Assembly (NCBI GenBank): GCA_023252195.1
Contig: JAHEXI010000022.1
Coordinates: 1-56,887, forward strand
Direction of reading: 5' to 3'
Length of the DNA stretch: 56,887 bases
From: Pseudonocardiales bacterium
GTDB lineage: Bacteria; Actinomycetota; Actinomycetes; Mycobacteriales; Pseudonocardiaceae
Made by a program: the position numbers and the translations under genes. Below the pieces are notes generated by a model that was not told the origin of the DNA, searched no databases, and saw only the letters and a program-made list of their open reading frames with translations. Shown piece by piece: positions 5,711 to 38,179 of this stretch; positions within the stretch are counted from its first letter, which is position 1, and each line of letters starts with the position of its first letter.

Positions 5711-8494
5711 ATGGCAATGATCGGAGGATCCGAGCGTGCGCCCACCGGGATGGCTGAGCGCGGTGATGTGCTGGGTGCGTTGGAGCGGCTCCTCAATGAC
5801 GCCGGCGAGGGGCGGGGAGGGGCGCTGTTCGTGGTCGGGCCCGCGGGGTTGGGTAAAACCACCCTGCTTGAGCACGCGATCACCCTGGCGAAACCACGGT
5901 TTGTGGTTGGTGTTGGGCGTGGGGACCAGGTGGAGGCGGTATTGCCATTCGGCCTGATCGGACAGGCTCTCGATCAAGTACTTAAGGGGAAGCTTCTCGA
6001 TGGCAGCGTGGCGCTGGACGCTGACGGTGGTGAGGCCGCCGACATCTCCCCGCAGGCCCGCGTCTACGGCATTCTCCGGGGTGTGCGGGAGGCGGCGGTG
6101 CGTCCGTTGCTGCTGGCGCTCGATGATCTGCATTGGTCGGATCCGGACTCGCTGACGGTGATCCATCTGATCTGCCGTCGCTTGGCCTGCCTGCCGGTGG
6201 CGTTGATTGCTACCACGCGCCCGTGGCCGGCGGAGGCGGTGACCTCGGCGCAGGATCTGGCCGCCCAGGGGTTGGCCGTGATCGAGCCGCTGGCTCCGCT
6301 GAGCACCGATGCTGCTCGGGAGTTGCTGTGTTCCCGGGTGAGTGGGCAGGTTTCGGCTGAGGTAGTCGACCAGGCCATCGAGCTGTGTGGTGGCAATCCG
6401 TTGCTGGTGGAACAGGGCGCTCTGGAGCTGAGTCGAAGTGGAAGCTTCGCCCAGGGGCAGGTCTGGTTCTCTCGGTTCGTCGGGGTGGGCGCGGCTGGGC
6501 GTCGTTATCTGCAGGCGGCGAGCGTGCTCGGTACGCGATTTCGGGCCGCTGTCGCGACGGAGGTGGCCGGGTTGTCCGCGACCGAGGCCGCCACCGAGAT
6601 CGATGGTCTGTTCCGCGGCGGCCTGTTGCACGAGGCCGAGGGCGGGTGGGCGCGGTTCACCCACGCGCTGATCCGCCAAGGCGTCTACGAGGACATCGCA
6701 CCGCCAGTGCGCAGCGAGCTGCATGCCGCCTGCTTCCGTGCCTTGATCTCCTTCCGGGCGTATCCGGCGGAGGCCGCCGAGCATGCCCTGGCCGCTCACC
6801 TGGCCGGTGACCCCAAGGCGGTGGCCACCGTGGCCCGGGCGGGGCGTGAGGCACTGCGGGTCGGCGCGGTCCGCGCCGCCAGAAGCTACCTGGAAGCAGG
6901 GATACGGCTCGCGGATCAGCCCGCGCCGCCAGAACTGCTCTTCGACCTGGGTGCGGCGTTGATCGCCGACGGTGCCAGCGAGGACGCGATCGCCGTCTAC
7001 GAACAATTGGTGGGCTTTCCTGAGCTGTCCACGGCGGACCGTATCACCGTCTTGCGCCAGCTCGGACAGGCCCTGTTCATCACCGGCCGGATCGAGCGCG
7101 CCGCGGCCTGCTGTGAATCCGCGGCGGGTCTGGCCGAGCAGGACCATCCCGCCCTCGCCGTCGGAGCTCTGCTCGACCAGGCACTGCACTACCGAACACA
7201 CTCCGGTCCCCAAGCCGCGTTACGGTGGGCGAACCGAGCCGCCGAGCTGGCCACGGCCCGGGGGGTCATGCAGGCCTCTGCGCAGGCGGCCTGGGGTGAG
7301 CTCGCCTATCGCTGCGGCGATCCCGAAGGCCTGGAGGCGGCAGCGGCCGCTATCACCCGCGTAGACCTCATCCCCACCTCGCCGCCCACCGACCAGCACA
7401 GATACCAGCATCCCGCGCTGAGCTACGCGATCCTGGCGGTACAGGCGGAGCGGTTCACCGACGCCGAACGACTCCTCACCGAGATCCTGAGCTCAACCGA
7501 ACGCCGATGCGAACCACTGACTTTGCTCCTGGCAGCGATGGCGTGGATCGACGGCCTGTGCCGGCTGGGCCGGCTCAATGAGGCGCTTGCTGTCGCCGAT
7601 CGCCTGACCGAGCTCGCCGAGTTGTTCCCCTACACTTCCCGGTTGGCCATCAGCTACCGAGCGTGGGTCCTCCTTGAGCAAGGAGAGCTTGAACAAGCAG
7701 CTCGCTGCTGCGCGCAGCTGCCGACCACGACCCAGCACGACCGTTACAGCCTGCATCGCGCCGATGGGTTGGAGTTTCACCTGCGAGCAGTCCTCGCCTA
7801 CCGCCAAGGAGACGCCGAGACCGCGTGCTCGCTGTTCGCCCAACTTGAACAGTGGGCTGACCGCACCGGTGAGGCCGACCCGTCGTATCTGCCGTGGGCA
7901 GGCGACGCGATCGCCGCTCACCTGGCCTGTGGCCGAGACACCGACGCACGGCATGTCATCGACTGGGTCACCCAACGCGCCGTGGCGCTTCCCACCCGGT
8001 GGCCGAAAATCGTCGTCGCCACTGGACAGGCCGCCCTCGCTGAGTACGCCGGGGACCGAGCACTCGCGGAGACCTATTTCACCCACGCGCTCGATCTCCA
8101 CGCCGAGCTGCCCATGCCGCTGGCCCGGAGCCAGACATTGACCGACTACGGCGCCTTCCTGACCCGCGGCGCCGAGCTCACCCGGGCGCGGGAACTGCTC
8201 GCCGAAGCGCTGCGTATCGCCGAGGAATGCGGAGCCGGTTGGCATGCCCACCGAGCGCGGGTCGAGTGGCGGCGGGCCGGCGGGCGCACCCGCACCCGCA
8301 AACCCGACGAGCTCAGCCCACAGGAAGCTAGCGTCGCCCAGCTCGCCCAGGCCGGCCGAACCAACCGAGAGATCGCCCAGCAACTCCACCTGTCCATCAA
8401 GACGGTGGAGTCTCACCTCGGGCACATCTATCAAAAACTCGGCATCCGCAGCCGTTGGCAGCTCACAAGCCCCAACACCGGCACCGATGGCTGA
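5711..8494 (+). CDS. large ATP-binding LuxR-family (LAL-type) transcriptional regulator
   Basis: 927 residues from ATG 5711, with GAGGGG seven bases upstream (GTG 5705 is too close to that site). The N-terminal AAA/STAND ATPase has Walker A GPAGLGKTT at residues 43-51 and Walker B LLLALDDLHWSD near 135-145. A long alpha-helical, TPR-like middle follows (ALxxG and AAxxAE repeats from about 330 to 840). The C-terminal LuxR helix-turn-helix is at about 866-918: LSPQEASVAQLAQAGRTNRE, IAQQLHLSIKTVESHLGHIY. Length and architecture fit the MalT/LAL class, which bind an inducer and ATP before activating nearby operons. Being directly downstream of the peroxidase and propeller genes, it is a candidate pathway-specific activator for them. 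Confidence 0.85.
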   Translation: MAMIGGSERAPTGMAERGDVLGALERLLNDAGEGRGGALFVVGPAGLGKTTLLEHAITLAKPRFVVGVGRGDQVEAVLPFGLIGQALDQVLKGKLLDGSVALDADGGEAADISPQARVYGILRGVREAAVRPLLLALDDLHWSDPDSLTVIHLICRRLACLPVALIATTRPWPAEAVTSAQDLAAQGLAVIEPLAPLSTDAARELLCSRVSGQVSAEVVDQAIELCGGNPLLVEQGALELSRSGSFAQGQVWFSRFVGVGAAGRRYLQAASVLGTRFRAAVATEVAGLSATEAATEIDGLFRGGLLHEAEGGWARFTHALIRQGVYEDIAPPVRSELHAACFRALISFRAYPAEAAEHALAAHLAGDPKAVATVARAGREALRVGAVRAARSYLEAGIRLADQPAPPELLFDLGAALIADGASEDAIAVYEQLVGFPELSTADRITVLRQLGQALFITGRIERAAACCESAAGLAEQDHPALAVGALLDQALHYRTHSGPQAALRWANRAAELATARGVMQASAQAAWGELAYRCGDPEGLEAAAAAITRVDLIPTSPPTDQHRYQHPALSYAILAVQAERFTDAERLLTEILSSTERRCEPLTLLLAAMAWIDGLCRLGRLNEALAVADRLTELAELFPYTSRLAISYRAWVLLEQGELEQAARCCAQLPTTTQHDRYSLHRADGLEFHLRAVLAYRQGDAETACSLFAQLEQWADRTGEADPSYLPWAGDAIAAHLACGRDTDARHVIDWVTQRAVALPTRWPKIVVATGQAALAEYAGDRALAETYFTHALDLHAELPMPLARSQTLTDYGAFLTRGAELTRARELLAEALRIAEECGAGWHAHRARVEWRRAGGRTRTRKPDELSPQEASVAQLAQAGRTNREIAQQLHLSIKTVESHLGHIYQKLGIRSRWQLTSPNTGTDG

Positions 8495-11322: not shown

Positions 11323-11880
11323 GTGGCAGGGCAACGGGGCGGCTGGCAGACGTTTGGTGAGAAGACGATCTATGACAATCGGTGGGTGCGCCTGGGACTG
11401 GTGGATGTTGAGGCGCCCAACGGGGAGCGGTGGGACTACCACGTCGTGCATTTGGGCCGGATCGCGGTGGCGCTCATTGTGGACAGTCAGGATCGAGCGC
11501 TGATGCTGTGGCGGTACCGGTTCGTCACGGAGCAGTGGGGGTACGAGCTGCTCGGAGGCCTGGTTGACGCGGGTGAGGATGCGGCGGGAACGGCGGCGCG
11601 AGAGGCGGAAGAGGAGAGCGGGTGGCGTCCGCTGGGGGAATCAGAGCGTCTGGTGAGTTTCGAGCCGCTGCCAGGGCAGGTCACTGCGCCGGTCGACGTG
11701 TTCTTGTGGCGGGGCGCTGACCGGATCGGGGAGCCGACCGACACGGAGGAAGCCGGGCGGGTGGAGTGGGTGCCGTTGTCGCGTGTGCCGGAGTTGGTGG
11801 CGCGGCAGGAGTTGCTGGGATCGGGGACGTTGGTTGCGTTGCTGTATTACCTGGCGTCAGGCGGCGGTGCCGCCCGGTAG
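11323..11880 (+). CDS. NUDIX hydrolase
   Basis: About 185 residues from GTG 11323, giving MAGQRGGWQTFGEKTIYDNR. Homologues of this subfamily start shortly before the T(F/H)GE(K/R)T(I/L)YDN motif, so the longer frame from 11218 is unlikely. There is no Shine-Dalgarno, so it may be leaderless. The Nudix box GGLVDAGEDAAGTAAREAEE plus ESGW lies at about residues 78-101 with the REx2EE metal-binding glutamates intact. It resembles ADP-ribose/sugar-nucleotide pyrophosphatase-type NUDIX enzymes. The last 24 bases overlap the convergent regulator gene. This subfamily is often found beside the XRE/helical-repeat regulator seen here. Confidence 0.85.
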   Translation: MAGQRGGWQTFGEKTIYDNRWVRLGLVDVEAPNGERWDYHVVHLGRIAVALIVDSQDRALMLWRYRFVTEQWGYELLGGLVDAGEDAAGTAAREAEEESGWRPLGESERLVSFEPLPGQVTAPVDVFLWRGADRIGEPTDTEEAGRVEWVPLSRVPELVARQELLGSGTLVALLYYLASGGGAAR

Positions 11881-12981
11881 CACGAGCCGGTTGAGCCGCC
11901 GTTGTTGCCGGTCGGATTTGATTTGCGCCGCAAGGCGACGTGCCTGCCGGGAATAGTCGAGGGCAGCGTCGCGGTCGCCGGCGGCTGCGTGGGCGTAGGC
12001 GAGGTCGACGAGTAGGCCGGTGCGGGCGCGGACGAAGTCGGCCGGGAGACATGCGAGGGCGGCGGTGAGTTGGTCGATGGCGTCGGGCGCCCCGACGCGG
12101 GCGAGGGCATTGCCACGCCAACGGTCGAGATGGGAGTCGCCGAGGAACAGGAAAGGCAGCGCGGGATCGACGGCGTCGCTTGGCAGTAGACCGTTCGCGA
12201 TGTCAAAGGCTAGCCGCGCATCGTCAGCCTGGCCGGCAGCGGCGAGGGTTTCGCCGTGCGCGGCGGCCAACCAGGCCCCGAGAAGGGGCGTGGCGGTGCC
12301 GTTAGCGATGCTGCGGGCATGGACAAGCTGTTCGACGGCGGCGGTGGTTTCGTCGAGGTCGATGAGCACGAAGGCTTGCTCGGCTGTGGCGTGCGCGAGG
12401 AGCGCGGGCGATGCGGCTTCGCGTGCGGCGGCTTTTGCGCGTTCGTAATGGGTCCACGCTTGCCCGAGCGCGGCCCGGTCGAGTGCTTGCCATCCGGCAA
12501 GCGTGGATGCCTCCACCAGCACCGCAGCCAGCGCGAGCCGCTGCGGTCCGGCGCGGTAGCTGAGTAGTTGGTGCACCTGGTCGATTTGGGTGCGGAGCTG
12601 ATCGAGTTGGGTGAGGGCGCCGAAGCGCCGGTCGACGTGGCGCGCGTGGTCGACCTGCTGGCGGAAGACGTCGACGATCTCGGGGTCGACGGTGCGGGCC
12701 ATGGCGAGCCGGGATCGTAGCTCGGCTGCTTCGGGGTCTTCTTCCGGTTCGTCGGGGAAGCCGAGTTCAGCGTTGGTCCGGCCGTAGATGTCGCGGAAGA
12801 GCCGCCGGTAGATCTCGCTGGGTTGCTCTTTCCCGTTCTCCCATCGCGACAGCTTGGTCTTCAAGCTCGCCCGGTTCGCGATCGGCAGGTTCAGCGCGGC
12901 GGCGCGCCGGGTAACGAGGTCGATCACCTGGGCTGCGGTGTAGCCCAGGTGTCGGCGCACGGTTTGCAGCGACGTCAACAT
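11857..12981 (-). CDS. XRE-like regulator with C-terminal helical repeats (paralogue A)
   Basis: 374 residues from ATG 12981. Residues 1-75 form a helix-turn-helix-like domain with ASLKTKLSRWENGKEQPSEI. The remainder is all-alpha with TPR-like repeats: LVEASTLAGWQALDRAALGQ, HATAEQAFVLIDLDETTAAV, LGAWLAAAHGETLAAAGQAD and GLLPSDAVDP. It shares these blocks with the regulator at 17762-18907. Such proteins are common beside actinobacterial integrative elements, but the ligand is unknown. The 3' end overlaps the NUDIX gene by 24 bp. Upstream, direct repeats GGTTAATGG at 13022-13040 are a candidate operator. Confidence 0.75.
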   Translation of the reverse strand: MLTSLQTVRRHLGYTAAQVIDLVTRRAAALNLPIANRASLKTKLSRWENGKEQPSEIYRRLFRDIYGRTNAELGFPDEPEEDPEAAELRSRLAMARTVDPEIVDVFRQQVDHARHVDRRFGALTQLDQLRTQIDQVHQLLSYRAGPQRLALAAVLVEASTLAGWQALDRAALGQAWTHYERAKAAAREAASPALLAHATAEQAFVLIDLDETTAAVEQLVHARSIANGTATPLLGAWLAAAHGETLAAAGQADDARLAFDIANGLLPSDAVDPALPFLFLGDSHLDRWRGNALARVGAPDAIDQLTAALACLPADFVRARTGLLVDLAYAHAAAGDRDAALDYSRQARRLAAQIKSDRQQRRLNRLVLPGGTAA

Positions 12982-13575: not shown

Positions 13576-13627
13576 TGAAATCAGTTCAATAAACCGATGA
13601 CATCATGCTTTCAATGGGAGTTCAGTT

Positions 13628-13909
13628 ATGGACAGCAACAACAAGGGCACCGAGAGTCCGGCGTTCTACACCGTCCCGGAGGCCGCCCGGGTCCTGCGGG
13701 TGACCCCAGCGACGATCTACCGCGCCATCCGCGACGACGCCTTCCCGGCTGTGCGGATCCGCACCCGCTACGTGATCCCGGCGGCGGCCGTGGAGCGGCT
13801 CGCGGCCGAGGCCGCCGAGTCCGGTGGGTGCGTGGATGTGGCGCAGATGGCCGCGCAGCGGCGCACTGCACGCGAGATGGCCCGCGTGAGTGGAGGTGCG
13901 TCGTGGTGA
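13628..13909 (+). CDS. excisionase/MerR-type helix-turn-helix protein
   Basis: 93 residues from ATG 13628, with GGGAG seven bases upstream. The fold signature is FYTVPEAARVLRVTPATIYR, AIRDDAFPAVRIRTRYVIPA, matching the winged-helix excisionase/MerR class (TVxEAAxxLxVS...IPAxRxGxRxxIP). In actinomycete integrative elements such proteins act as Xis or as activators of element genes. The C-terminal 30 residues are an Arg/Ala-rich tail. Its TGA at 13907-13909 overlaps the GTG start of the WhiB gene, so the two are translationally coupled. No integrase lies next to it, so an excision partner, if any, would be remote. Confidence 0.78.
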   Translation: MDSNNKGTESPAFYTVPEAARVLRVTPATIYRAIRDDAFPAVRIRTRYVIPAAAVERLAAEAAESGGCVDVAQMAAQRRTAREMARVSGGASW

Positions 13910-14277
13910 ACCCCGACGACGATGCCCTGGACTACGAGGCCATGGCCGCCGCGCTCGACCGCTGGTGCCAGGTCCCCGACGACGTGCTGACCACTGTCGT
14001 GGTGCGCCGTGGATTGTGCCTGTGGGGGCTCTGGCCGGCGGTAGAGCCCGACTGGGACGACTGCGCACCCAGCGACCGGGAATTGGCCGCCCGGTTGTGC
14101 GCCGGGTGCCCAGTCATCGACCAGTGCCGGGAGCTGGATCTCCGCACGGCCGGTCCGAGCACCACCGGCGTGTGGGGCGCACTGGCCGAAGACGACCGGC
14201 GCGCGCTGCACCCGATCTGGCAGCACCGCCGCCAGCAGCACAACACGACAGATCAGGAAGGAGGACCGCTGCCATGA
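13903..14277 (+). CDS. WhiB-family iron-sulfur regulator
   Basis: 124 residues from GTG 13903, with GGAGG seven bases upstream at 13892-13896. Features are a cysteine in RRGLCLWGLWP, DDCAPSD, then LCAGCPVIDQC, the CxxCx5C part of the WhiB [4Fe-4S] site, and the turn motif GVWGALAEDDRRAL. The basic C-terminus RALHPIWQHRRQQH is the expected DNA-contact region. WhiB proteins work as redox-sensing partners of sigma factors. Here it is the second gene of an overlapping four-gene transfer operon, with 4-bp overlaps or coupling on each side, so it probably controls transfer of the element rather than host development. Confidence 0.85.
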   Translation: MVNPDDDALDYEAMAAALDRWCQVPDDVLTTVVVRRGLCLWGLWPAVEPDWDDCAPSDRELAARLCAGCPVIDQCRELDLRTAGPSTTGVWGALAEDDRRALHPIWQHRRQQHNTTDQEGGPLP

Positions 14278-14603
14278 CCATCAACCTGAGCCCGACCGAA
14301 ATAATCGCCGCGATCGGAGTGCTGCTGGCGCTGGTCATGGTGTGGCGCTCGGGCACCAGGCGAGCACGCCGGGCGGCCGACGCCGCCCACGCGGCCTCCC
14401 GGCTCGCCTCCCTAGCCGGGCAGGTATTCATCACCGCTGGGGTGATCGTCGGCGTCCAGTGGGTGGCGATGACCTACGCCGCCAACACCACGCTGTTCTG
14501 GGTCGCGCTCGCCCTGCCGGCGCTGATCACCGCCTACGTGGTCACCCGCGCCCTGGCGGTGACCTCACTGGATGTCACCTATCGGCGGGGGGACCGGCGA
14601 TGA
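14274..14603 (+). CDS. small membrane protein of the transfer operon
   Basis: 109 residues from ATG 14274 (ATGA overlap with the WhiB stop; AGGAGG upstream). Three hydrophobic stretches are visible: EIIAAIGVLLALVMVW near the N-terminus, GQVFITAGVIVGVQWVAMTY, and LFWVALALPALITAYVVTRA. An Arg-rich segment (RSGTRRARRAADAAHAASRL) sits between the first two. Position and topology resemble small membrane (Spd-like) proteins of Streptomyces-type conjugation, which accompany FtsK-like translocases. Specific function unknown. The stop overlaps the FtsK start. Confidence 0.65.
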   Translation: MTINLSPTEIIAAIGVLLALVMVWRSGTRRARRAADAAHAASRLASLAGQVFITAGVIVGVQWVAMTYAANTTLFWVALALPALITAYVVTRALAVTSLDVTYRRGDRR

Positions 14604-16876
14604 CCACGTTTCACGAGGCACCGGAAGCGGCCGCGGCCCAGCCTTCGGCGGTGATCCCGGCGGACCCGGTGATCGACGCCGAGCTCATCGATGATGACGA
14701 CCGACCCCACACCCGACAAGAGCACCACCGGCGGCCGTCGTGGTGGCAGCGCTCGCCACGCGTACCGGCCGCATTCAAAAGCCCCACCAACGCAGCACAG
14801 ACAGCCAAGGACGCGGCCGTGGCCACGGTGAGCTCGCCGCGGCGATTCCTGCGCGCGGCCAGTCGAGGGACGGTGCTGGCCGTGCGGGCGTGGCGGCGGT
14901 GGGTGACCGTGCGCGACTACAGAGACGCCGCCGAACAATCGGAGAAGCTAGCGGATAAGTACGTCGAGATTCGGGAGCTGACCCTGTTGCGGTGGCGGGT
15001 GACCGGCGGCGTGACCGGGATCGGCGTGGCCGGTGTAGCGGTAGGCGACATGGTCTACGGCTCGCCAGCGCTGTGGATCACGGCCGTGATCGGCGCGGCC
15101 GTATTGGCGATCACCGGTCGACGTAAGGACGGCAGTCCCGGCCGCAAGCCGGTACTCGCCGGACCCCGCTCGCTGACCTGGACGATGGACCCGCAAATCC
15201 TGGTTGACGCCTTCCGGGACGCCAAACTGATCGGCAAGGACGAGACTCTCCGCCTGGTCGAACGGGCCAGCCGGGTAGGTGCCGGGTGGGCGATCACCGT
15301 CGACCTCCCAGCCACCCGCAAGGCCACCGACGTGGTCAAAAACCGCGAGGCGCTCGCCTCTGCGCTCGCCGTGGACGAGGTGCAACTGCTCGTCGAACGA
15401 GTCCGCGGCAACGGCGGGCACGCCGGGCGGGTCGCGATGTGGGTTGCCGACGCCGACCCCTACGCCACCCCAGCACTACGCACGCCCCTGCTTGACGTGG
15501 CGTGCTGGGACGCCTGGCGGGCAATACCGTTCGGCCGCGATGCGCGGGACCGCCGCATCACCCTCCCGCTGGTGTGGACCTCGCTGCTCGTCGGGGCGAT
15601 CCCCCGCCAAGGCAAGACCTTCGCCGCCCGACTCGCTGCTGCCGGGCTGATCCTCGACCCGCACACCCGGCTCTACGTGGCCGATTTCAAAGCCGGTAAG
15701 GACTGGGACGCCGCCGCGCATGTGGCGCACCGGTTCATGTCCGGCGACGAACCCGCCCACGTCCTGGCCCTGGCCGCCTGGCTCGTGGAACTCGTCACCG
15801 AAGTCCAAGGCCGATACCGAAGAATGCGCGACCTCGACAACGACACCTGCCCCGAATCGAAAGTCACTCCCGCGATGTCCCGCGACCCATCCCTGAACAT
15901 GCCAATCACGGGCATCTTCATCGACGAAGTCCAAGTCCCCCTTGAAGAACGCACACCCATCAAGGTGCAAGGCAAGATGATCCCCGCCGGGCAGTACATC
16001 GGCGAGCTGCTGACCTGGCTGGCCAAGAAAGGACCGGCCGCCGGAATCGTCCTCGTATTGGCGACTCAACGGCCGGATTCGAAAACGATCCCGTCGCAGT
16101 TGCGGGCCGTGCTCGGCTCCCGCTTCGCTCTGCGAGTGATGGACTGGCGGGACAGCAACATCATCCTCGGCGAGCAGATGAATACCCGCGGGTGGGACAG
16201 CAGCCGACTGTTGCCCTCGCATAAGGGCGTTGGCATCCTTCGCCCCGACGGCGAGACCGCGGCCGGTGCCGATGTGCTGGCCATGATGGTCCGCACCGAT
16301 TACATGCCCAACGACGACTGGACCACGCTCTGCGAGCGCGGCCGGGGGCTGCGCGCGGCGGCCGGCACGCTCACCGGCCATGCGATCGGCGCCGCGTCCG
16401 TCCCCGTGCTCGACACGGCCATCGTGGCTCACGTCATCGGCCCCAGTCAGATCCTCGACGAGAGGCCGCCAGCCCGTGATGTGCCGGAGGATTTGCCGGA
16501 GCCGCTGGCGTCGGTGGTCGAGTACCTGGGCGCCGATCTCGACGACGGTGGCCGTGAGTTCGTGCCCACCGCCGAACTCGTCGATGCCCTCGGCGTCGAG
16601 CCCACTGCGTTCGGACGGCAGATGGGCGAACTCGGCTGCCGACCTCGCCCGGGGCGCCGAATCACCGCCGTGGACGGCACCAGCCGGCGGGCCCGCGGCT
16701 ACCTCATCGCCGATATCCGGGCCGCGATCGAGGCCCATCGACACGACCCGGAACCCGACGACGGCCAGTCTGAATCCGTCACGCCAAGCTGGCAACCCGT
16801 CACATCAGGTGGTAACCCGTCGCAGCGCGTGTCACGGGTTACCATGCCATCTGAGCTGCCGAAACCTCTGGTGTGA
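14600..16876 (+). CDS. FtsK/SpoIIIE-type DNA translocase (TraB/TraSA-like)
   Basis: 758 residues from ATG 14600, overlapping the previous stop by 4 bp. Two membrane segments lie near residues 138-180 (GVTGIGVAGVAVGDMVYG, ALWITAVIGAAVLAI). The motor has Walker A GAIPRQGKTFAARL near residues 331-344, Walker B GIFIDEVQ near 437-444 and an LATQRPDSKTIPSQLRAVLG sensor block. The C-terminus has a winged-helix-like segment (TAELVDALGVEPTAFGRQMG, RRARGYLIADIRAAIEAH). These are the single-protein double-stranded DNA pumps of actinobacterial mycelial conjugation. A cluster of AACCCGTCAC repeats begins inside its 3' end and continues downstream, as expected for the DNA site recognised by such a pump. 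Confidence 0.88.
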   Translation: MTTFHEAPEAAAAQPSAVIPADPVIDAELIDDDDRPHTRQEHHRRPSWWQRSPRVPAAFKSPTNAAQTAKDAAVATVSSPRRFLRAASRGTVLAVRAWRRWVTVRDYRDAAEQSEKLADKYVEIRELTLLRWRVTGGVTGIGVAGVAVGDMVYGSPALWITAVIGAAVLAITGRRKDGSPGRKPVLAGPRSLTWTMDPQILVDAFRDAKLIGKDETLRLVERASRVGAGWAITVDLPATRKATDVVKNREALASALAVDEVQLLVERVRGNGGHAGRVAMWVADADPYATPALRTPLLDVACWDAWRAIPFGRDARDRRITLPLVWTSLLVGAIPRQGKTFAARLAAAGLILDPHTRLYVADFKAGKDWDAAAHVAHRFMSGDEPAHVLALAAWLVELVTEVQGRYRRMRDLDNDTCPESKVTPAMSRDPSLNMPITGIFIDEVQVPLEERTPIKVQGKMIPAGQYIGELLTWLAKKGPAAGIVLVLATQRPDSKTIPSQLRAVLGSRFALRVMDWRDSNIILGEQMNTRGWDSSRLLPSHKGVGILRPDGETAAGADVLAMMVRTDYMPNDDWTTLCERGRGLRAAAGTLTGHAIGAASVPVLDTAIVAHVIGPSQILDERPPARDVPEDLPEPLASVVEYLGADLDDGGREFVPTAELVDALGVEPTAFGRQMGELGCRPRPGRRITAVDGTSRRARGYLIADIRAAIEAHRHDPEPDDGQSESVTPSWQPVTSGGNPSQRVSRVTMPSELPKPLV

Positions 16877-16972
16877 CGGGTTGGCTGACCTGTGTCCCAA
16901 CCCGTCACACCCGTCACCAGAAGCCCCTGATGAGCCCACTTTTCGGGATGCGGGTTCAGCCGTTACGGGTTC
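16773..16972. repeat. AACCCGTCAC repeat cluster at the ftsK 3' end (candidate clt transfer locus)
   Basis: Copies of AACCCGTCAC or close variants: 16773-16782 (AATCCGTCAC), 16794-16803, 16814-16823 (AACCCGTCGC), 16831-16840 inverted (GTCACGGGTT), 16873-16882 inverted (GTGACGGGTT), 16899-16908, 16910-16918 (CCCGTCACC) and a degenerate inverted copy near 16962-16971. Four lie in the translocase coding sequence and the rest just beyond its stop. In Streptomyces plasmids the clt locus is made of short repeats bound by TraB and often lies at the 3' end of traB. The equivalence is inferred; a replication origin is the main alternative. Confidence 0.6.
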
Positions 16973-17761: not shown

Positions 17762-18907
17762 TTGAGAGGGTTGGCCAACCGGCCGCCGCGGACGCTGCTC
17801 GAACAGCGCATCCGCCAGCGATGCATGACCTACGAGGAGTTCGTACAACACGCCGAAGCCTTCGCCCGCGACAATCACGAACCCGGCACGCTGAGCCTGC
17901 GGCACCTCCAGCGACTCGTCAGCGGCCAAACTCACAGCTCGCTTCGACCAGCCACAGCGCGACTGCTCGAACGACTCTTAGGTGAACCCATTGTGGCCCT
18001 CCTCGCACCGCCGAAGGCCGTTGCGGACGAGGGCGAGAATCCCGCCGACGAATTACGTCGGCTACTCGACGCCGCCCGACGCGTTGACCGCTGGACCATC
18101 ACACTTCTGCACCAACAACTCGACGCGATCCGCCGACTCGACCGGCAACTCGGTGCCGTCGTCGTCCGAGACGAACTCAACACCAAGATCCGTCAAGTCC
18201 AACGGCTCGCCGCGCACAGCCTCGCTCCCGGCAGCAGGGAACCGCTCGCCGGGCTGCTCTCCGAGATGCACACCCTCGCCGGCTGGCAAGCACTCGACCT
18301 CGGCGACGTACCCAACTCCTGGCAACACTACGAACACGCCCGATCGGCCGCCGCACAATCCGAGTCCATCTCGCACGAATCGCACGCCGCTGCCGAACAA
18401 GCGTTCGTGCTCATCGACGCTGGAGCTACCGGTGACGCGGTCGACCTACTCGACGGCGCCCGACGCCGCGCCGACGCGACCACGCCCCGCATCCTGCGAG
18501 CATGGCTAACCGCCGCGCAGGGCGAAGCCCTCGCGGCCCACGGCGACCGGACAGCCAGCCTGCGCGCGTTCGACAGGGCGGCCGAACTGCTGCCGAGCGA
18601 CACCGCTGATGAACGACCCTACGTGGCACTTGACGCCGTGCACCTCGCGCGCTGGCGCGGCCACACGCTCGCCCACTTCGGCGACCCTGATGCCACCGCT
18701 GTCCTCACCGACGCACTCGCCCAACTCGACCCGTCGTTCGTCCGCGCCGAAACCGCACTCCGCGTTGACCTCGCGACCGCCCTTGCCGCCAACGGCCACC
18801 GAGACGAGGCACGCACCCACGCCGACCATGCAGCCCGGCTCGCGACGCAAGTCGGCTCAGCACGCCAGCGTCGGCGCATCACAACTCTCTTGGCCGCCGT
18901 CTGCTAA
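17762..18907 (+). CDS. regulator with C-terminal helical repeats (paralogue B)
   Basis: 381 residues from TTG 17762; TTG 17771 is better spaced from GAGGAG at 17755-17760 and would remove three residues. The N-terminus RTLLEQRIRQRCMTYEEFVQ, LSLRHLQRLVSGQ is a degenerate helix-turn-helix. The C-terminal repeats match paralogue A (11857-12981): LAGWQALDLGDVPNSWQHYE, AAEQAFVLIDAGATGDAVDL, RAWLTAAQGEALAAHGDRTA, LLPSD. The two paralogues flank the xis/whiB/ftsK module in opposite orientation. The target is unknown; control of element genes by a small signal is a reasonable inference. Confidence 0.7.
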   Translation: MRGLANRPPRTLLEQRIRQRCMTYEEFVQHAEAFARDNHEPGTLSLRHLQRLVSGQTHSSLRPATARLLERLLGEPIVALLAPPKAVADEGENPADELRRLLDAARRVDRWTITLLHQQLDAIRRLDRQLGAVVVRDELNTKIRQVQRLAAHSLAPGSREPLAGLLSEMHTLAGWQALDLGDVPNSWQHYEHARSAAAQSESISHESHAAAEQAFVLIDAGATGDAVDLLDGARRRADATTPRILRAWLTAAQGEALAAHGDRTASLRAFDRAAELLPSDTADERPYVALDAVHLARWRGHTLAHFGDPDATAVLTDALAQLDPSFVRAETALRVDLATALAANGHRDEARTHADHAARLATQVGSARQRRRITTLLAAVC

Positions 18908-28092: not shown

Positions 28093-29359
28093 TCAGGCTC
28101 GGAACTGTGGTGGCCTTGGCAGTCGCGCGGCCAGTAGCCCGGCGGCCGTCTTGTCGGCGGCGGCCAGCCACGCCGCATAGACCCGAAGCGTCGTCGCTCC
28201 GCCACCGCCGTGACCGAGCCGCCCGGCAACGGTGCGGACGTCGACGCCAGCCGCGATCAGCTCGGTGGCGCTGTAGTGGCGCAGCGCATGTAGGTGCGTG
28301 TCGATGCCGAGATCAGCGGTCATCCTCGTGTACCGATGAGTAACGGCGTCGGGATCACAGTGCCGGCGGTGGTCAGGTGCGTAGGAGAACACGAAGGCGG
28401 CGGCGTCGAGCGTGGTGCCGAGTTCGGTGCAGTGGCGCTGCGCGCTCTGCTTGTGGACGGTCAGGATCGCGATGGTGTCCGGGTCGAGGCTGACGATGCG
28501 CATCTGGTGTGTCTTGGTGTCTTTGATGATCGCCTTGCCGTTCTGGCGGACCAGGTTGCGCCGGATGGTCAGCAACCCGGCGGACAGGTCGAGGTGTTCC
28601 CACGCCAGGCCGAGCAGCTCGCCGCGTCGCGCGCCGGTGATGAAGGCTAGCCAGACGAAGGTGCCCCAGTCGGCGTCCTGCTCCCACGCCGCACTCACGA
28701 TCTTGGCCGCCTCCCCGGCCGATGGCGGATCGGGCTGCGGGTGCTGCTGACGCGGACGCTTGACCGCTTCCAAGGGATTGACCGCGATCCAGCCCCACCG
28801 CATCGCCGCATTGAGCGCACCGCTGAGCACCGCTGAGCACCGCGTGGCACTCCCGGACCGAGGATACCGAGAGCGGCCGACACTGATGCGGCGCGCACCG
28901 CTTGTCGCACTTGTGCTCCCGGTGCGTGCGGTGCTCGATGAACGTCCGCCCCTTGCACCGTCGACGGCAGACCCGCAGTTCCGCGTAAAGCTGCTCGAAC
29001 GGGCGCGCCCCAAGCTGCGCCAGCCGACTCAGCGAGGTATCGCCAACCGCCGGCTTGATGAAGTTCTCGATCGCCACGCGATAGCTCGTCCGAGTGGTCT
29101 CCTCGACCTGGTGGCCGGCCAGCCACTGATCGAGCAGGTAGCCCAACGTCACGCTGGTCCGCGCGGACGTCGCCTCCGTGACCTGCCGCCGGAACTTGTC
29201 CCGGAGCTTGATCGCCGAGTCTTCGTCCTCGGCTGAACCGGTCAACATCACCTGCTTGCCGGTCACCGGATCTTGACCACCGAAGAGCCGAATCTGGTAC
29301 CTGCCGCCGCGCGGCCGGATGCCGGTCAGGTCCTTCGGTGCCTGCTTCCTGCGTGCCAT
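28093..29359 (-). pseudogene. tyrosine recombinase (integrase) broken by a 10-bp tandem duplication, beside tRNA-Phe
   Basis: ATG 29359 opens an integrase: arm domain GGRYQIRLFGGQDPVTGKQV, SAM-like domain TLGYLLDQWLAGHQVEETTR, and a Cys-rich insertion (CRRRCKGRT...CDKRCAPHQC). Near 28825 the sequence GGTGCTCAGC is present twice in tandem, which shifts the frame. The next frame carries the catalytic domain: FITGARRGELLGLAWEHLDL (Arg I), HLHALRHYSATELIAAGVDV (HxxR), RLGHGGGGATTLRVYAAW (His, Tyr). Removing one 10-mer restores a single protein of about 418 residues. The start codon is about 90 bp from the 3' end of tRNA-Phe, the usual attachment target of such elements. Confidence 0.85.
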
Positions 29360-29452
29360 GAGGGGCAGTGTAAGCAGCGGAATTGGACAGTCAGTTGGAC
29401 AAAGATCGATCGAAGATCATTAAAAATGACCATCTACACTGGTCAGAGGTGG

Positions 29453-29526
29453 TGGCCAGGGGCGGGGTCGAACCGCCGACCTTCCGATTTTCAGTCGGAC
29501 GCTCGTACCAACTGAGCTACCTGGCC
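29453..29526 (-). tRNA. tRNA-Phe (GAA)
   Basis: The minus strand folds as a full 74-nt cloverleaf: acceptor GGCCAGG/CCTGGCC, D-arm GCTC/GAGC, anticodon stem TCCGA/TCGGA with loop CTGAAAA (anticodon GAA) and T-arm GGCGG/CCGCC with TTCGACC. Discriminator A, and CCA appears to be encoded (29450-29452). Its 3' end faces the broken integrase. Confidence 0.97.
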
Positions 29527-30992: not shown

Positions 30993-33482
30993 GTGGTGAA
31001 CGGCAACGCGCTGATCCGGGTTCTCGGCCTGTGCTTGATCGCGGGCCTACTGGTGGCCGGCCTCCTGTTTCCCGCCGTGGGCAGTATCGGTCTGGCGTCC
31101 AACCAGGCCAGTGACACGGTCACCAGTGTCTCGTCCAACCTGGTCCAAAGCCAGGTGCCGGTGGTCACCACGATCACCGACAAGGATGGGGTACCGATCG
31201 CCTACCTGTTCGATCAGAACCGGTTCAATACGCCGCCCCAAGCCATCGCCGACACGATGAAGGCGGCGATCATCGCCATCGAGGACCGGCGGTTCTTCGA
31301 ACACAACGGGGTGGACTGGCGGGGCACCGCCCGCGCCCTGATGACCAACCTGTCCTCCAGCGGCAGCGCGCTCGAGGGCCAAGGCGCCTCGACGTTGACG
31401 ATGCAGTACATCAAGAACTACATGCTGTATGCGGTCGCCCAGAACGATGCCGAGCGCGCCGCGGCCGTGGAGAGCACCCCGGCCCGCAAGCTGCGCGAGA
31501 TCCGGGTGGCCCTGCAGCTGGAGAAGCACCTGTCCAAGCAGGAAATCCTGGCGCGGTATCTCAACATCGTCTTCTTCGGCCACAACGCCTACGGCGTCGC
31601 CTCGGCCGCGCGGACCTACTTCAACACCACGCCGGACCGGCTCACCATCTCGCAGGCCGCACTGCTCGCCGGCATGGTGCGCTCGACCACCACCTACGAC
31701 CCGGTAGAGCACCCCGAGCACGCATTAGAACGGCGCAACGTCGTCATCGACGAGATGACCAACGTCGGGTCGATCACTCCCAGACAGGCCGACGCGGCCA
31801 AGGCTGAGCCGTTGGGAATCCAGCGCCCGCTGACCGGGTTGACCAACGGATGCGTCGGCGCCGGTCCCGCGGATGGCTTCTACTGCCAGTACACCCTGGA
31901 CTACCTCGCGACCGTGGGCTTCCCCGAGGACAAGCTGCGCCGTGGCGGGTACCTGATCCGCACCAACCTCGACCGCCGGGCCAGTGACATAGCCAAGCGC
32001 GCGGCAACCTCCGAGGTGCCAACCCAGACCCCGGGAATCGCCGACGCGATGGCCATCGTGGAGCCCGGTAGCGACAAGCACCCGGTCCGGGCGCTGGTGG
32101 CCAACCGCGACTACGGAATCGATGCCGACGCCGGCCAGACGTCCTACGCGCTGCCGTCGCTCGTGCAGGGGTTCGGCGCCGGGTCGATCTACAAGATCTT
32201 CACCGCCGCGACCTTGCTTGAGCGGGGTATGGGAATCATGAACCCGGTACCGGTGACGGATTCGTACACCTCGCGGGTGTTCCGCGACAACGGCGGCGCC
32301 TACACCGTCACCAACGCAGGCAAATACCGCAACGGTTCGGTCACCCTGCAGACCGCGCTGGCGATCTCTCCGAACACCACCTTCGTCGCCCTGGAGGACC
32401 GGATCGGATCGATCGACCCGGTGGTGAACATGGCCTACCGGCTGGGCATGCGCCAGAGCCTCAATTTCAAGGACTCCTCTGGCCGCACGATCGCCGACGC
32501 CGTCAAGAAGGAGCGTCGGGGCTCCTACACCCTGGGACCCGAGCCGACCAGTCCGCTGGACCTCGCCAACGTCGGCGCGACCTTGATGAGCGGCGGGAAA
32601 TGGTGCCCGCCGACCCCGATCGATGCGGTGCTCGACCGCAACGGTCACCCGGTGCCGGTGCCTGAGGCACCCTGTGAGCAAGTCGTTCCGGCGGGACTGG
32701 CGAACTCCCTGGTAGTCGGATTGAGCAAGGATGACCAGCCCAGCGGCACCTCCTTCGCCGCCGCGCAGGCTGCGCACTGGACGCGCCCGATCCTCGGCAA
32801 GACCGGCACCACGCAGAACAACCGCTCGGCCGGCTTCCTCGGGGCGACGCCGCAGTACTCCGGTGCTGTGCTGGTGTGGCCGGACGGATCGCGGCCGAGC
32901 GGGATCTGCGACTCAGACCCACCCCGACTGTGCAGCAACGGCGATATCTTCGGCGGCAAGGTGCCCGCCCGCACCTGGTTCAACGCGATGGTTCCGCTGC
33001 ACGAAGGCCTCCCGGTGATGCCACTGCCGCCCACCGACCCGCGCTACGTCAGCGGCGCCGGACCGAACGTTCCCAACGTGGTGGGGCAGGGCGAGAACGT
33101 CGCCCAGCTAACCCTGGAGCGGGCCGGTTTCCGGGTGAAGCGGGTGGTGTCGTCGTCGGATCAGCCAGCGGGCACGGTCGCGTCCGAGGCGCCCACCACC
33201 GCCCAGCCCGGCGACGTGATCACACTTTCGGTCAGCGATGGGACAGGTCGGCCGAAACCCGCCCCGAGATCACCTCCCGCGGCAGCCCCTTATCAGCCGC
33301 CACAACGGGCTGGTCAAGATCAGGTGGGTCAGCCGGGTCAGGCCACGGATGGGCAGCAGGGCCCCGATGGACAAGCTGGGCCGGCAACGGACCCGAACGC
33401 GGACCCGAACGCCAACGCGGACCCGAACGCGGACCCGACCACAAGGCCGAACCGTCATCGGGGTCGGCGGCATGGCGGCTAA
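30993..33482 (+). CDS. class A penicillin-binding protein with PASTA domain
   Basis: 829 residues from GTG 30993, probably leaderless (no ribosome site). One N-terminal membrane anchor, LIRVLGLCLIAGLLVAGLLF. The transglycosylase domain has EDRRFFEHNGVDWRG at residues 97-111 (catalytic Glu) and QGASTLTMQYIKNYM. The transpeptidase has SIYK (Ser near 398), SPN near 459 and KTGTT near 602. One PASTA domain follows (VPNVVGQGENVAQLTLERAG, near 690-755), then a disordered Pro/Gln tail with DPNAD repeats. It polymerises and cross-links peptidoglycan at the outer face of the membrane. With the YqeY and phosphoesterase genes this is a PonA-type conserved neighbourhood. Confidence 0.92.
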   Translation: MVNGNALIRVLGLCLIAGLLVAGLLFPAVGSIGLASNQASDTVTSVSSNLVQSQVPVVTTITDKDGVPIAYLFDQNRFNTPPQAIADTMKAAIIAIEDRRFFEHNGVDWRGTARALMTNLSSSGSALEGQGASTLTMQYIKNYMLYAVAQNDAERAAAVESTPARKLREIRVALQLEKHLSKQEILARYLNIVFFGHNAYGVASAARTYFNTTPDRLTISQAALLAGMVRSTTTYDPVEHPEHALERRNVVIDEMTNVGSITPRQADAAKAEPLGIQRPLTGLTNGCVGAGPADGFYCQYTLDYLATVGFPEDKLRRGGYLIRTNLDRRASDIAKRAATSEVPTQTPGIADAMAIVEPGSDKHPVRALVANRDYGIDADAGQTSYALPSLVQGFGAGSIYKIFTAATLLERGMGIMNPVPVTDSYTSRVFRDNGGAYTVTNAGKYRNGSVTLQTALAISPNTTFVALEDRIGSIDPVVNMAYRLGMRQSLNFKDSSGRTIADAVKKERRGSYTLGPEPTSPLDLANVGATLMSGGKWCPPTPIDAVLDRNGHPVPVPEAPCEQVVPAGLANSLVVGLSKDDQPSGTSFAAAQAAHWTRPILGKTGTTQNNRSAGFLGATPQYSGAVLVWPDGSRPSGICDSDPPRLCSNGDIFGGKVPARTWFNAMVPLHEGLPVMPLPPTDPRYVSGAGPNVPNVVGQGENVAQLTLERAGFRVKRVVSSSDQPAGTVASEAPTTAQPGDVITLSVSDGTGRPKPAPRSPPAAAPYQPPQRAGQDQVGQPGQATDGQQGPDGQAGPATDPNADPNANADPNADPTTRPNRHRGRRHGG

Positions 33483-35109: not shown

Positions 35110-35183
<74 letters not shown>

Positions 35184-35200
35184 CACCACCAAACCGCAGG

Positions 35201-36458
35201 TCAGGAGCCCTCATCGCTGGGCTCCTGTTCTGTTTTCGGCGTCGGTTCAGGGGCCGGAGTCAGCAGAAAGTCAGCAAATACTGACCTGACTCGTTGGTCC
35301 CGGTCCTGCGATGGGTGGGTGTAGCGGTCAAGGGTCGTCGAGGTTTGCTCGTGTCCCATGACCGCGGACACGTCGTTGATCGGCACTCCGGCTGAAACCA
35401 ACCAGGTCGCGTACGAATGGCGAAGATCATGAAAACGGAGCCCGCCGTGGGCGTACCTGACAATGTGCTCGATCGCCTCCCGCCTGGTGGCGAACTCTTT
35501 CGAGCATTCAGCCTGTGCCGTCTTGCCAGTGCGCCATGAAGGTATGTTCGCCGACCTCGACGAGCTTGCCCAGCAGGCCGGCGCGAACCAGCGACGGCCG
35601 CCAGACCTTGGCGCGAAAGGTGGTGCGGCGGACCGCGGCGCCGCTGCGTGAGGTGAACACCAGGCCGCTGGCACCGGGCGGGTAGCGGCGCTGGTGTTCG
35701 GTCAGCAGCTCGACAACGAACGCCGGGATGGGCACGATCCGGCGGCCAGCCCTGGACTTCGGGTAGGGCTTGTCGGTGACGTTCCCGGAGACCTCGACCG
35801 CGACTCGGACCACACGAAGGGTTCGCGTCGCCAGGTCAACAGCATCCCACCGCAAGCCCGCACACTCGCCCCACCGCAGGCCAGTCCCACCGGCCAGCCC
35901 GACGAGTGCCCGGTACCGATCCGGTACGGCCGGGAGCAGCTGAGTGACCAGCTCGTGCTGGGTGATGACCTGATCGTCAGTGTCTTTACGACGCCGACGA
36001 GTGAGCCGCACGCCTTCGCACGGGTTGTGTCCGATGAGCCGGTCCCGGACCGCGGTTCGCAGGACGGCCGACGCCAGCCGGTGGCACTCAGCGACAGTGG
36101 CCGGAGACAGTCGCGCGCCGAGCTCGGTCACCCATTGCTGGACCGCCAGGTGATCGATCTTGGTGAGCGGTGTCGTGCCCCATCGCGCTATCACGTGGTT
36201 GCGCATGATCGACGCATCACGCGCCACCGTGGTGATCTCGTCGTTCCTCGCGTTGAGCCACCGGGCCGCATAGACTCCGAACCGCATGCGCCCGGCATGT
36301 GGATCAACATAGAGGCCACGGCTGACCGCGGTCTCGACCTCCGCGAGATATGCCTTCGCCTCGCGTTTCGTGGAAAAGGTTCTCGCCCGCTGCCGGCCGG
36401 CGGCATCACGCCAATTCGCGCGGTAGCCACCGGCCTGTGTTGGCACGATGTGACCCAT
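35201..36458 (-). pseudogene. tyrosine recombinase (integrase) of the tRNA-Pro element, one frameshift
   Basis: ATG 36458 starts IVPTQAGGYRANWRDAAGRQ, then HLAVQQWVTELGARLSPATV and the catalytic Arg block GGTGLRWGECAGLRWDAVDL. The frame ends at a stop near 35507 after FMAHWQDGTG. The alternative frame continues KTAQAECSKEFATRREAIEH, GLRFHDLRHSYATWLVSAGV (HxxR), VMGHEQTSTTLDRYTH (His, Tyr). One base near 35520 joins them into about 418 residues. All catalytic residues are present across the two parts. The ATG overlaps the excisionase stop as ATGA, the normal xis-int arrangement of pSAM2-like elements. Confidence 0.85.
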
Positions 36459-36715
36459 CAGTGCCGCACTCCGTTCTGTACTTCATCGAGGCTGTCGAGC
36501 CAGGCGTGGAAACGGGCGCGCGGGACGACCCACCGACCGCCGAGCCGCAGCGCGGGAATGGTGCCGTCGCGGACCAACGCGTACGCAGTGCCGCGCGACA
36601 GAGAAAGGAGCTGTGCGACCTCGACCACGGTGTAAACGGCCCGCTCGGCAGGCTGTTTATCCGGCGTCAAGTCGTGATCTTGTGCCCTGGTAACCAGAGC
36701 GACCAAGTTGCCCAT
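36458..36715 (-). CDS. xis: excisionase (Xis-type helix-turn-helix protein)
   Basis: 85 residues from ATG 36715. YTVVEVAQLLSLSRGTAYAL, VRDGTIPALRLGGRWVVPRA is the excisionase/MerR winged-helix signature (TVxEVAxLLxxSRxTAYxLxxxGxIPxxRxGxRWxVP). It assists the integrase in excising the element. It overlaps int by 4 bp and follows repSA by about 30 bp, so rep-xis-int form one operon. Confidence 0.88.
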   Translation of the reverse strand: MGNLVALVTRAQDHDLTPDKQPAERAVYTVVEVAQLLSLSRGTAYALVRDGTIPALRLGGRWVVPRARFHAWLDSLDEVQNGVRH

Positions 36716-36745
36716 GGGGCGGAGGTTCCCTTCTGCGGAGGGGAT

Positions 36746-38176
36746 TCAGGCTGCGTCTCGGGCGGCTTGTCGTTGTTCGCGTGCTCGGGCGGCTGCGGAA
36801 AGCGCGAGTGCGGTGTCTCCGGTGGTGAGGTAGCCGAGCCCAGTGAATTCCCAGTGCGCGATGACGAGGGTGGTGTCCTCGTCGAGCAGCTCACGGGCGT
36901 GTTCGGCGGCCTGTTGTTGGCGGTAAGCGCGGCGCTCACCGCGGATGGCACCGAGGGTGGTGGAGTAGCGCCGACTCTTGGAGGCGAAGTGCCCACGAAA
37001 GCCGATCATGTGGATCCATCGGCGTATGCCGAGGTAGACCGGGTGTTCGCCGAGTTGCCAGGCGGTGTGCACCAGCCGGTTCACGTGGTCGGTGACACCG
37101 AGCAGGGGCAGCGCTTCGAGGGTGATGCGACGCTCGCCAAGGCCGAAGTGTTCAGCGCTTTTGGTCGCGTATTTGGCGATGTAGCGGGCTGCGTGTTCGG
37201 GGGTCAGCTCGCCGGTCGGTCCGCCGTTGACGGTCTGGGTGTCAAGCTGCTCACCGAAGCGCAGCACCAAGTCGGATCCGTCGGGCATCTCGACGGTGAG
37301 CCGGACGTGCGCGGCGGCCTGGCGGATGGCGTCGGCGAGTGCAGTGGCGTCGATGCTGATCTGTGGTGGCTGGTAATCGTCGCCCGGACCGTCGAGCCGG
37401 ATGAGGGAATGGAAGTGGACCACGCCGCGACGCTGGAATTCTGCGACCTTGACAAACGACACCCGGCAGCACCGGCCGAACTCAACCGCGGTCAGCCCGG
37501 TCTGGTGGGCCAGGATGCGGCGGACGGCGATGGTGAACCGGCGCCACAGTTCTGGTGCGTGCCAGTTGAAGGCGATGTGGGCGGGGTAGTCGTAGCAGTC
37601 CGGGCAGATCGGCTGCCCCAGCCGTGGGTCATCCCCGCTATGAGTCGCGGTGCACCGGGTTGTCCGCCCGTGAGGGCATAGCCGGGGTGTGCTGCGGATC
37701 GGCCGGCATTGACCAAGTCCGGTTCGAGTGGTGTGTACCGGCCCGAACCCGGGTGCGGTCAGGGTGGCAAACACCAGCGGGTGCAACCGGATGGACTCGG
37801 GGACACCCTTGCGACCGCCAGCGGCGCCAGCATACAGCAGTTGCCACATATCGCCGGCGTACTCATACGAGCAGGACGGGCATACCGCCGCCCGCCGGTT
37901 CCCGCATCGGATCAGCAGCACGCGATCCGGCTCACCGTCGGTCGAGTAGCTGACCCGCCGACCACTGGCCGATCGATGTTCAACACGGCCGCGAAGCCGT
38001 ACCGGGCGGGAACAGTGCCCAGACCGCGTGACTTGCTCAGCCCACCGGTCGAAGTCCGACCGACCGGCTCGGGTAATGATCTCGTCCACCGTACGCGGCG
38101 GGAGGGTGGCGATCCGGGTCATCGTCGGACCCGGTGCGCATTGAGAACTGGGGAAGTGGCCATTCCGTGCCTCCAT
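36746..38176 (-). CDS. repSA: RepSA-like rolling-circle replication initiator
   Basis: 476 residues from ATG 38176, with weak start evidence; ATG 38122 (MTRIATLPP) is an alternative. The zinc-finger-like region RLCPHGRTTRCTATH...ICPDCYDY precedes the relaxase core: HUH motif VVHFHSLIRLDGPGDDYQPP near residue 250, then the catalytic Tyr segment EHAARYIAKYATKSAEHFGL near 335 (YxxK). C-terminal GIRRWIHMIGFRGHFASKSR, RYSTTLGAIRGERRAYR is typical of pSAM2 RepSA. It nicks the element's origin to start replication after excision. It lies 3 bp downstream of ftsK on the same strand. Confidence 0.9.
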   Translation of the reverse strand: MEARNGHFPSSQCAPGPTMTRIATLPPRTVDEIITRAGRSDFDRWAEQVTRSGHCSRPVRLRGRVEHRSASGRRVSYSTDGEPDRVLLIRCGNRRAAVCPSCSYEYAGDMWQLLYAGAAGGRKGVPESIRLHPLVFATLTAPGFGPVHTTRTGLGQCRPIRSTPRLCPHGRTTRCTATHSGDDPRLGQPICPDCYDYPAHIAFNWHAPELWRRFTIAVRRILAHQTGLTAVEFGRCCRVSFVKVAEFQRRGVVHFHSLIRLDGPGDDYQPPQISIDATALADAIRQAAAHVRLTVEMPDGSDLVLRFGEQLDTQTVNGGPTGELTPEHAARYIAKYATKSAEHFGLGERRITLEALPLLGVTDHVNRLVHTAWQLGEHPVYLGIRRWIHMIGFRGHFASKSRRYSTTLGAIRGERRAYRQQQAAEHARELLDEDTTLVIAHWEFTGLGYLTTGDTALALSAAARAREQRQAARDAA

Positions 38177-38179
38177 TGG

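Follow-up and report, generated by a model that had tools for sequence, protein, structure and literature searches.

Conjugative translocases of the TraB type transfer double-stranded DNA using one plasmid protein, and the way in which TraB selects the DNA to be moved has been established in few plasmids. The present analysis concerns a cluster of short repeats at the 3' end of a traB-like gene in a stretch of 56,887 nucleotides from a Pseudonocardiales bacterium (assembly GCA_023252195.1, contig JAHEXI010000022.1), here called the window. The cluster very probably represents the cis-acting transfer locus (clt) of the element that carries the gene. It is composed of eight copies of the word AACCCGTCAC, three exact and five with one mismatch, five of them in forward and three in reverse orientation (Table 1). 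Since the stop codon of traB is 16874-16876, four copies lie within the gene, one lies across the stop and three are found 3' of it. The inverted repeats 4 and 5 are 42 nt apart, and perfect inverted arms of 15 nt with a loop of 12 nt occur at 16870-16911. The original prediction of eight copies or near-copies in both orientations around the traB stop was thus reproduced, and the position it had given for the word GACCCGGA, 16745-16752, was correct.

Fourteen matches with at most one mismatch are present in the 56,887 bases, eight of which are inside the 200 bases of the cluster; the remaining six correspond to 0.021 expected per 200 bases and to a Poisson probability of about 1e-18 for the cluster. 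With up to two mismatches the entire window contains 79 matches against 67.4 expected, and 10 of 100 shuffles gave an equally high number. The signal is therefore clustering and not total, because the window-wide count is ordinary at this tolerance. In a stricter test with exact 8-mers the cluster was not outstanding, its 4 copies per 300 bp being matched at 27201 and at 33151-33351. The whole genome (4.74 Mb) contains 13 exact copies of the 10-mer, three here, four clustered on contig C48 and six single ones at background level, and the reversed control word occurs six times; with 7 of the 13 copies in two clusters, the density of the word elsewhere in the genome is not equal to that found here.

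The traB gene probably starts at ATG 14600, and the frame of 844 aa that opens at 14342 exceeds this likely gene in length. As judged from its sequence, the product is an FtsK/SpoIIIE-type translocase related to TraB; in tblastn it shares 30% identity with TraB of plasmid pSVH1 (E 9e-28). Hydrophobic stretches are visible in the translation by inspection. According to the structural prediction, the protein is endowed with a C-terminal winged-helix DNA-binding domain, the third helix of which would be the recognition helix. Structure comparison with the PDB by Foldseek gave nothing at E 0.001 or better, and a sequence-profile search of the PDB gave a single match, at E 0.11. No FtsK gamma domain appeared among the matches listed, a result that carries no weight against one. 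P0001 was without a match among 50,697 phage records.

Table 1. Features of the window around the traB-like gene and in its flanks.
Feature	Position	Strand	Remark
Repeat cluster, candidate clt	16773..16971		Place and order conserved in part of the orthologues
Repeat 1, AATCCGTCAC	16773..16782	+	
Repeat 2, AACCCGTCAC	16794..16803	+	Exact
Repeat 3, AACCCGTCGC	16814..16823	+	
Repeat 4, AACCCGTGAC	16831..16840	-	
Conserved box, ATCTGAGCTGCCGAAACC	16849..16866	+	Between inverted repeats 4 and 5; rank 2 in the window
Repeat 5, AACCCGTCAC	16873..16882	-	Exact; overlaps the traB stop codon
Repeat 6, AACCCGTCAC	16899..16908	+	Exact
Repeat 7, CACCCGTCAC	16908..16917	+	Tandem with repeat 6, 9-nt spacing
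Repeat 8, AACCCGTAAC	16962..16971	-	
traB-like FtsK/SpoIIIE translocase gene	14600..16876	+	758 aa from ATG 14600
Predicted C-terminal winged-helix domain, coding region	16499..16744	+	Residues 634-715 of 758
Third (recognition) helix, PTAFGRQMGE	16601..16630	+	Residues 668-677 of 758 (754-763 of the 844-aa frame); model helix 55-64
WhiB-like gene upstream of traB	13597..14277	+	PF02467, 37.5 bits, residues 160-204 of a 226-aa frame
NsdA-family TPR-like regulator, left flank	11857..12981	-	NF053720, 138.9 bits
NsdA-family TPR-like regulator, right flank	17762..18907	+	NF053720, 128.3 bits
Tyrosine integrase remnant, two frames	28093..29359	-	Two tblastn matches, 28108-28863 and 28787-29320; the C-terminal one matches PF00589 with 63.3 bits

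Conservation in orthologous loci

A search for orthologues found 85 relatives, of which 80 loci were kept, and the addition of the window gave a set of 81. Most of the orthologue loci bear titles of Amycolatopsis or related genera, the exceptions being L026 (Dormiibacter) and L030 (Streptosporangiaceae); the family membership of these genera is our assumption. L026 is a contig labelled Candidatus Dormiibacter with a traB region of 93% identity, possibly a binning error. Copies of the core CCGTC.C were counted from 230 bp before to 270 bp after the traB stop, with a threshold of at least four.

At least four copies of the word or of a relative were found near the traB stop in 42 of the 81 loci, the window included, i.e., in 41 of the 80 orthologues. 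The repeats are accordingly conserved beside orthologous translocases, and with the uneven distribution of the word in the genome the original prediction of a candidate clt is supported on both counts. The words of the 42 loci fall into classes by the bases that frame CCGTC: the preceding base is C in 32 and G in 10, and the following base is A in 35, C in five and T in two. The order of copies recurs as well, 28 of the 42 word-bearing loci showing a forward copy, at least two inverted copies and a forward copy again. Two inverted core copies are 41-44 nt apart in 28 of the 81 loci, and a forward copy with at most one mismatch starts at the final base of the stop codon in 15 of the 80 orthologues. 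A test independent of the word, which looked for any exact 8-mer present at least five times in 300 bp, was positive near the stop in 25 of the 81 loci and elsewhere in one; at a threshold of four copies the numbers were 36 and 19, respectively.

The box between the inverted copies

The DNA enclosed by the inverted pair contains a loosely conserved sequence that is not a repeat, approximately TGACCWGCGGAAAC. Two matrices were used for its evaluation. The first was seeded with pSVH1 and trained on 45 loci, therefore the high score of pSVH1 with it is circular; the box scores given for the paralogue, the phage clusters and the traB-free clusters, as well as the spacing counts, were all obtained with this matrix. 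For the second, the gaps of 41-44 nt in 28 loci were used, with pSVH1 and the window not among them. It ranks the site at +144 of pSVH1 first of 14,174 positions (21.0 bits, runner-up 14.0) and the site at 16849 second in the whole window on both strands (15.4 bits). The top match of the second matrix in the window is at 25258 (CCGTGACCTGCGGAAACT, 16.0 bits), with no word repeat cluster nearby. With the first matrix a forward-strand box of at least 14 bits was found in 39 of the 45 training loci; among these 39, an inverted core copy is located 15-17 nt before the box in 27 and 24-26 nt after the box start in 33.

The core of the box in plasmids, CTGA[CT][CG][TA]GC, occurs between -100 and +260 of the gene end in 12 of 16 TraB plasmids, at a density of 2.08 per kb in that interval versus 0.15 per kb outside. 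The 16 plasmids include pSVH1 and seven that are closely related to it (about 60-75% identity); among the other eight the core was found in four. It is absent behind the tra gene of pIJ101 and occurs in that plasmid at 6886, about 80 bp from a coding sequence at 6966-7208, as well as at 8120 and 3007. This coding sequence is presumably korB. The clt of pIJ101 is reported to be near korB (PMC3583192). If the box holds up, it would be a lead to clt loci of unknown word.

An exact pattern of box and repeats was also tried and abandoned. It gave 56 stretches in viral contigs versus 65 for a control with reversed box, i.e., no viral enrichment, and five versus one in 150 genomes of the family; it is too strict for bacteria, since the genome of the window itself gives no match.

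Recognition helix and word

The comparison of the third helix with the words showed the best agreement with the base that precedes CCGTC for three alignment columns, 755 and 753 (each in 37 of the 42 loci) and 757 (in 36). Two simple codes were rejected: a correspondence of Gln with the A of the word is broken by L102, and a correspondence of Arg or Ser after the conserved Cys (residue 767) by L077, L100, L027 and L094.

A second TraB is encoded in the same genome on contig C23, 84% identical over residues 195-810. Its N-terminal part (59% identity) was matched as a separate piece, which indicates that this traB frame is broken. The third helix reads DRTTLSRQM, versus EPTAFGRQM in the window. 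Behind the C23 gene ACCCGTCAC was not found; nine copies of CGTCACA with variable preceding bases are present, including a 42-nt inverted pair as in the window, and the tandem copies are spaced 8 nt, versus 9 nt in the window. The 42 natural pairs of helix and word in five word classes, together with two paralogues in one genome, make a recognition code directly testable.

Comparison with known systems

Among the closest known counterparts is pSVH1 (L225), in which GACCCGGA occurs, counted from the traB stop, at +16, +38, +70 and +91 in forward and at +107 in reverse orientation, with one further copy at +2649 in the 7.1 kb examined. The letters of this published word were taken from the original prediction, the cited papers speaking of "8-bp repeats" (PMC4170104, PMC3583192). 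Binding of TraB at the repeats of this Streptomyces venezuelae plasmid was reported by Vogelmann et al. 2011 (cited in PMC3583192). Both systems have repeat copies close to the 3' end of traB in both orientations, and a box, CTCTGACCTGCGCAAACA, is also present in pSVH1. They differ in the word, in the number of inverted copies, which is lower in pSVH1, and in the position of the box, which follows the repeats in pSVH1 and is placed between two inverted copies in the window.

The clt of pWTY27 consists of 16 bp within traA and 159 bp beyond it and is bound by TraA according to footprinting (PMC3583192). Like the cluster of the window, it extends across the end of the tra gene to some 160 bp beyond and contains short direct and inverted repeats; its words are TGACACC and CCCGCCC, the comparison being based on the published description. 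As different clt words have been published for pIJ101, pJV1 and pWTY27 (PMC3583192), the word of the window adds one more specificity and not a new principle. The new TraB-clt specificity class of the original prediction is to be narrowed in this sense, the word being new. No report of this word or box in a clt was recognised in the open-licence literature, as judged by titles and abstracts.

Like the integrative and conjugative elements of actinomycetes (AICEs), the element has a single FtsK-type translocase and an integrase adjoining a tRNA gene (PMC3218068, PMC9513070). It differs from them in that no replication gene was found in it and in the NsdA-like and WhiB regulators that flank traB. 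Elements with traB that are devoid of rep and/or int are classed as defective AICEs (PMC9513070).

Function of the cluster

The cluster is best regarded as the clt of a degraded integrative conjugative element of TraB type, a reading to which we assign a probability of about 0.83 on the basis of sequence comparison. Our inferences are that these words are bound by TraB, that the box has a role in transfer and that transfer depends, or once depended, on the locus. As in known TraB-clt systems, the cluster lies at the tra gene. Overall, the locus would be a TraB-type clt distinguished by its new word, by a box that is shared loosely and by specificities that form a natural series. Less expected were that there is a box, that the word belongs to a family of related ones and that the module also occurs without traB. 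We propose that the C-terminal winged helix of TraB reads the 9-10 bp word through its third helix, and that the array of forward and inverted copies, by its order, serves to load TraB subunits, which would form a hexamer around the DNA of the element. The box between the inverted copies could be a second site, less dependent on the word, involved in melting, in orientation or in contact with a shared partner protein. TraB would then pump the element as double-stranded DNA into the recipient.

Several observations weigh against such a function. The word is missing from 39 of the 81 loci, 27 of which, in the range L036-L104, have a serine recombinase gene within 600 bp 3' of traB and no recognisable repeat cluster, and among 30 loci picked as serine-recombinase loci no other repeated word was found at the traB end except in L055 and L100. 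Two of the word-free loci have high box scores (L088, 21.5; L089, 15.5). The box itself is weak, 10.1 bits over 18 columns with the second matrix, which gives top rank to a site within 0-250 bp past the gene in 4 of the 16 TraB plasmids. The plasmid core is found in just 4 of the 42 word-bearing loci, therefore the plasmid and chromosomal boxes are alike and not equal. In the gap of C23 a box-like CATCTAGCAGGAACAATAG scores 11.2, below the 95th percentile of random windows (11.5). The covariation of helix and word depends on five changes in the tree. A test by independent pairs, three of them on well-supported branches, did not show it to be significant, a level that this test cannot attain with three to five changes; L102, L077 and L100 are exceptions to the covariation. 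The match of the window TraB to PF01580 is 0.1 bit short of the cut-off (23.9 versus 24), and that to NF041214 (plasmid_TraB, NCBIfam) is far below it (22.9 bits versus 800). Finally, 10 of the 55 IMG/VR contigs described below have 8-11 exact copies of ACCCGTCAC on phage contigs in which no traB was seen, and the phage cluster L122 holds a high-scoring box (23.4). In L088 and L089 the box is located at +23 to +24 after traB, with an adjoining sequence resembling TGTGACGGCTGTGACACC.

The tandem word was found in IMG/VR in 55 stretches, versus 11 for the reversed control. The phage clusters share with the window the 9-bp core ACCCGTCAC in both orientations; they differ in the order of copies, in the lack of a visible TraB and in their location in or beside genes for primase, helicase and polymerase. 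In nine of the 11 contigs scanned (L108, L122, L130, L138, L158, L107, L119, L120 and L144; none in L135 and L145) a frame that adjoins or overlaps the cluster has a match to Prim-Pol, DUF5906 or PolA, which favours an origin role in the phages. The stretch of L138 had no match to annotated phage.

These phage clusters, as likely origins, and the box in one of them are the argument for the strongest alternative, namely that the repeats are iterons of a replication origin, at which an initiator starts the copying of the excised element, their place at the end of traB being incidental. This alternative is considered unlikely. No match to RepSA or Prim-Pol was found in the traB element, and Prim-Pol is absent from the whole contig; the sole RepSA of the contig (36791-38056) sits with its own integrase and FtsK near a tRNA-Pro. 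None of the 15 RepSA matches of the genome, eight of which span nearly the whole model, has an exact copy of the word within about 19 kb. Moreover, the clusters are located at the traB stop, vary with the TraB helix (not significantly when phylogeny is considered) and share the layout of the pSVH1 traB region.

Clusters without traB bear on a further alternative. Ten more cluster stretches were found in the genus, in six genomes (L014, which is C48 of the same genome, L182, L188, L189, L215, L216, L217, L218, L222 and L223). No TraB was detected in any of them by tblastn with the TraB of the window and of pSVH1 as queries, the control L219 being detected; the absence is firmest for L014, L182 and L222, since L189 and L215-L218 are cut by contig ends and L223 on one side. 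In L014, L182, L215 and L217 the cluster is located at the 3' end of a serine recombinase gene, these recombinases being related (74-94% identity). In L218 it is at the end of a frame that matches a recombinase weakly (23.4 bits, cut-off 25.3) and in L223 at the end of a tyrosine integrase; no recombinase was found near L188, L189, L216 and L222, where some frames were scanned. The stretches contain 3 to 13 exact copies, the form in which the word mostly occurs there, and two of them have two clusters. A same-strand pair 41-44 nt apart is present in eight of the ten and encloses the best box match in six. Box scores of 220 random windows have their 99th percentile at 14.1 and a maximum of 18.3; of 12 sub-clusters 8 exceed this percentile, the others being the second copy of L014, L183, L184 and L215.

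The location of six of these ten clusters at a recombinase gene could suggest a recombination site, either arm-type sites of a tyrosine integrase or a hot spot for the entry of cargo. A tyrosine integrase is present in 23 of the 42 word-bearing loci, the serine recombinase follows traB mostly where the word is missing, and variable genes are found between the cluster and the next conserved gene, all in line with this proposal. However, L055 and L100 are serine-recombinase loci that do carry the word cluster, and the traB-free clusters are at four or five serine-recombinase loci and one tyrosine-integrase locus, so that the cluster is not tied to one recombinase type. It is also unbroken within integrated elements and mostly at kilobase distance from their integrase, where an attachment site would be split at the ends; for these reasons arm sites, and a recombination role in general, are very improbable. 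Least probable of all are operators or a terminator governing transcription at the traB 3' end, given that the inverted arms at 16870-16911 could form a hairpin just past the stop but no T run follows it, the copies outside the hairpin keep the word, the box is conserved, and the elements have another word of operator-like appearance, TGAAATCAGC, at the start of several genes.

The cluster with its box might also act as a portable pass, by which the traB-free stretches ride on the TraB of another element in the manner of mobilizable elements transferred as double-stranded DNA; this extension is tentative and rather doubtful. Genome G002 (98% complete) has a cluster and no TraB closer than 29-32% identity, therefore the traB-free clusters would be either riders awaiting a helper or remnants. 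Such passes would be specific for one TraB, since the two TraB lineages of this genome are paired with different words, AACCCGTCAC and CGTCACA. Whether one AICE can hijack a TraB that belongs to another has been raised as a question in PMC9513070, where it is also noted that no clt has been described for pSAM2. The traB-free stretches with the same word make the question of hijacking testable.

The element around traB

In the WhiB-like gene the true start is probably later, since the match covers residues 160-204 of the frame only. By gene calls the WhiB family recurs in 40 of the 81 loci, the copy of the window being missed by these calls, and the NsdA-like family is found in 75; a NUDIX protein and a tyrosine integrase also recur in the elements of relatives. 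A tRNA-Phe (29450-29526) lies beside the integrase remnant, which probably belongs to the traB element and, being in two frames, is not the intact integrase of a complete AICE. With this integrase split, the element is probably no longer self-mobile; together with the lack of a RepSA or Prim-Pol match in it, this points to a probably degraded element. A search for DUF3631 gave no match anywhere, controls included, and is uninformative.

The word TGAAATCAGC (at most one mismatch) occurs ahead of the WhiB operon and of NsdA and serine recombinase genes, at about 13576 in the window and in many of the elements of the relatives L026-L105, and looks like a shared operator-like word. It was considered as a replacement clt word in the serine-recombinase loci and rejected, because it sits at several gene starts.

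The eight nearly full-length RepSA genes of the genome are on contigs C47, C11, C19, C12, C26, C15, C38 and C43, and the genome may thus hold many integrated elements. A tRNA-Pro, a tyrosine integrase, RepSA and FtsK, in this order, make up a second AICE, of pSAM2 type, at 35110-39736 of the window. At 56262-56294 an inverted near-copy of 33 nt (94%) of part of the tRNA-Phe region was observed, possibly the trace of an attachment site.

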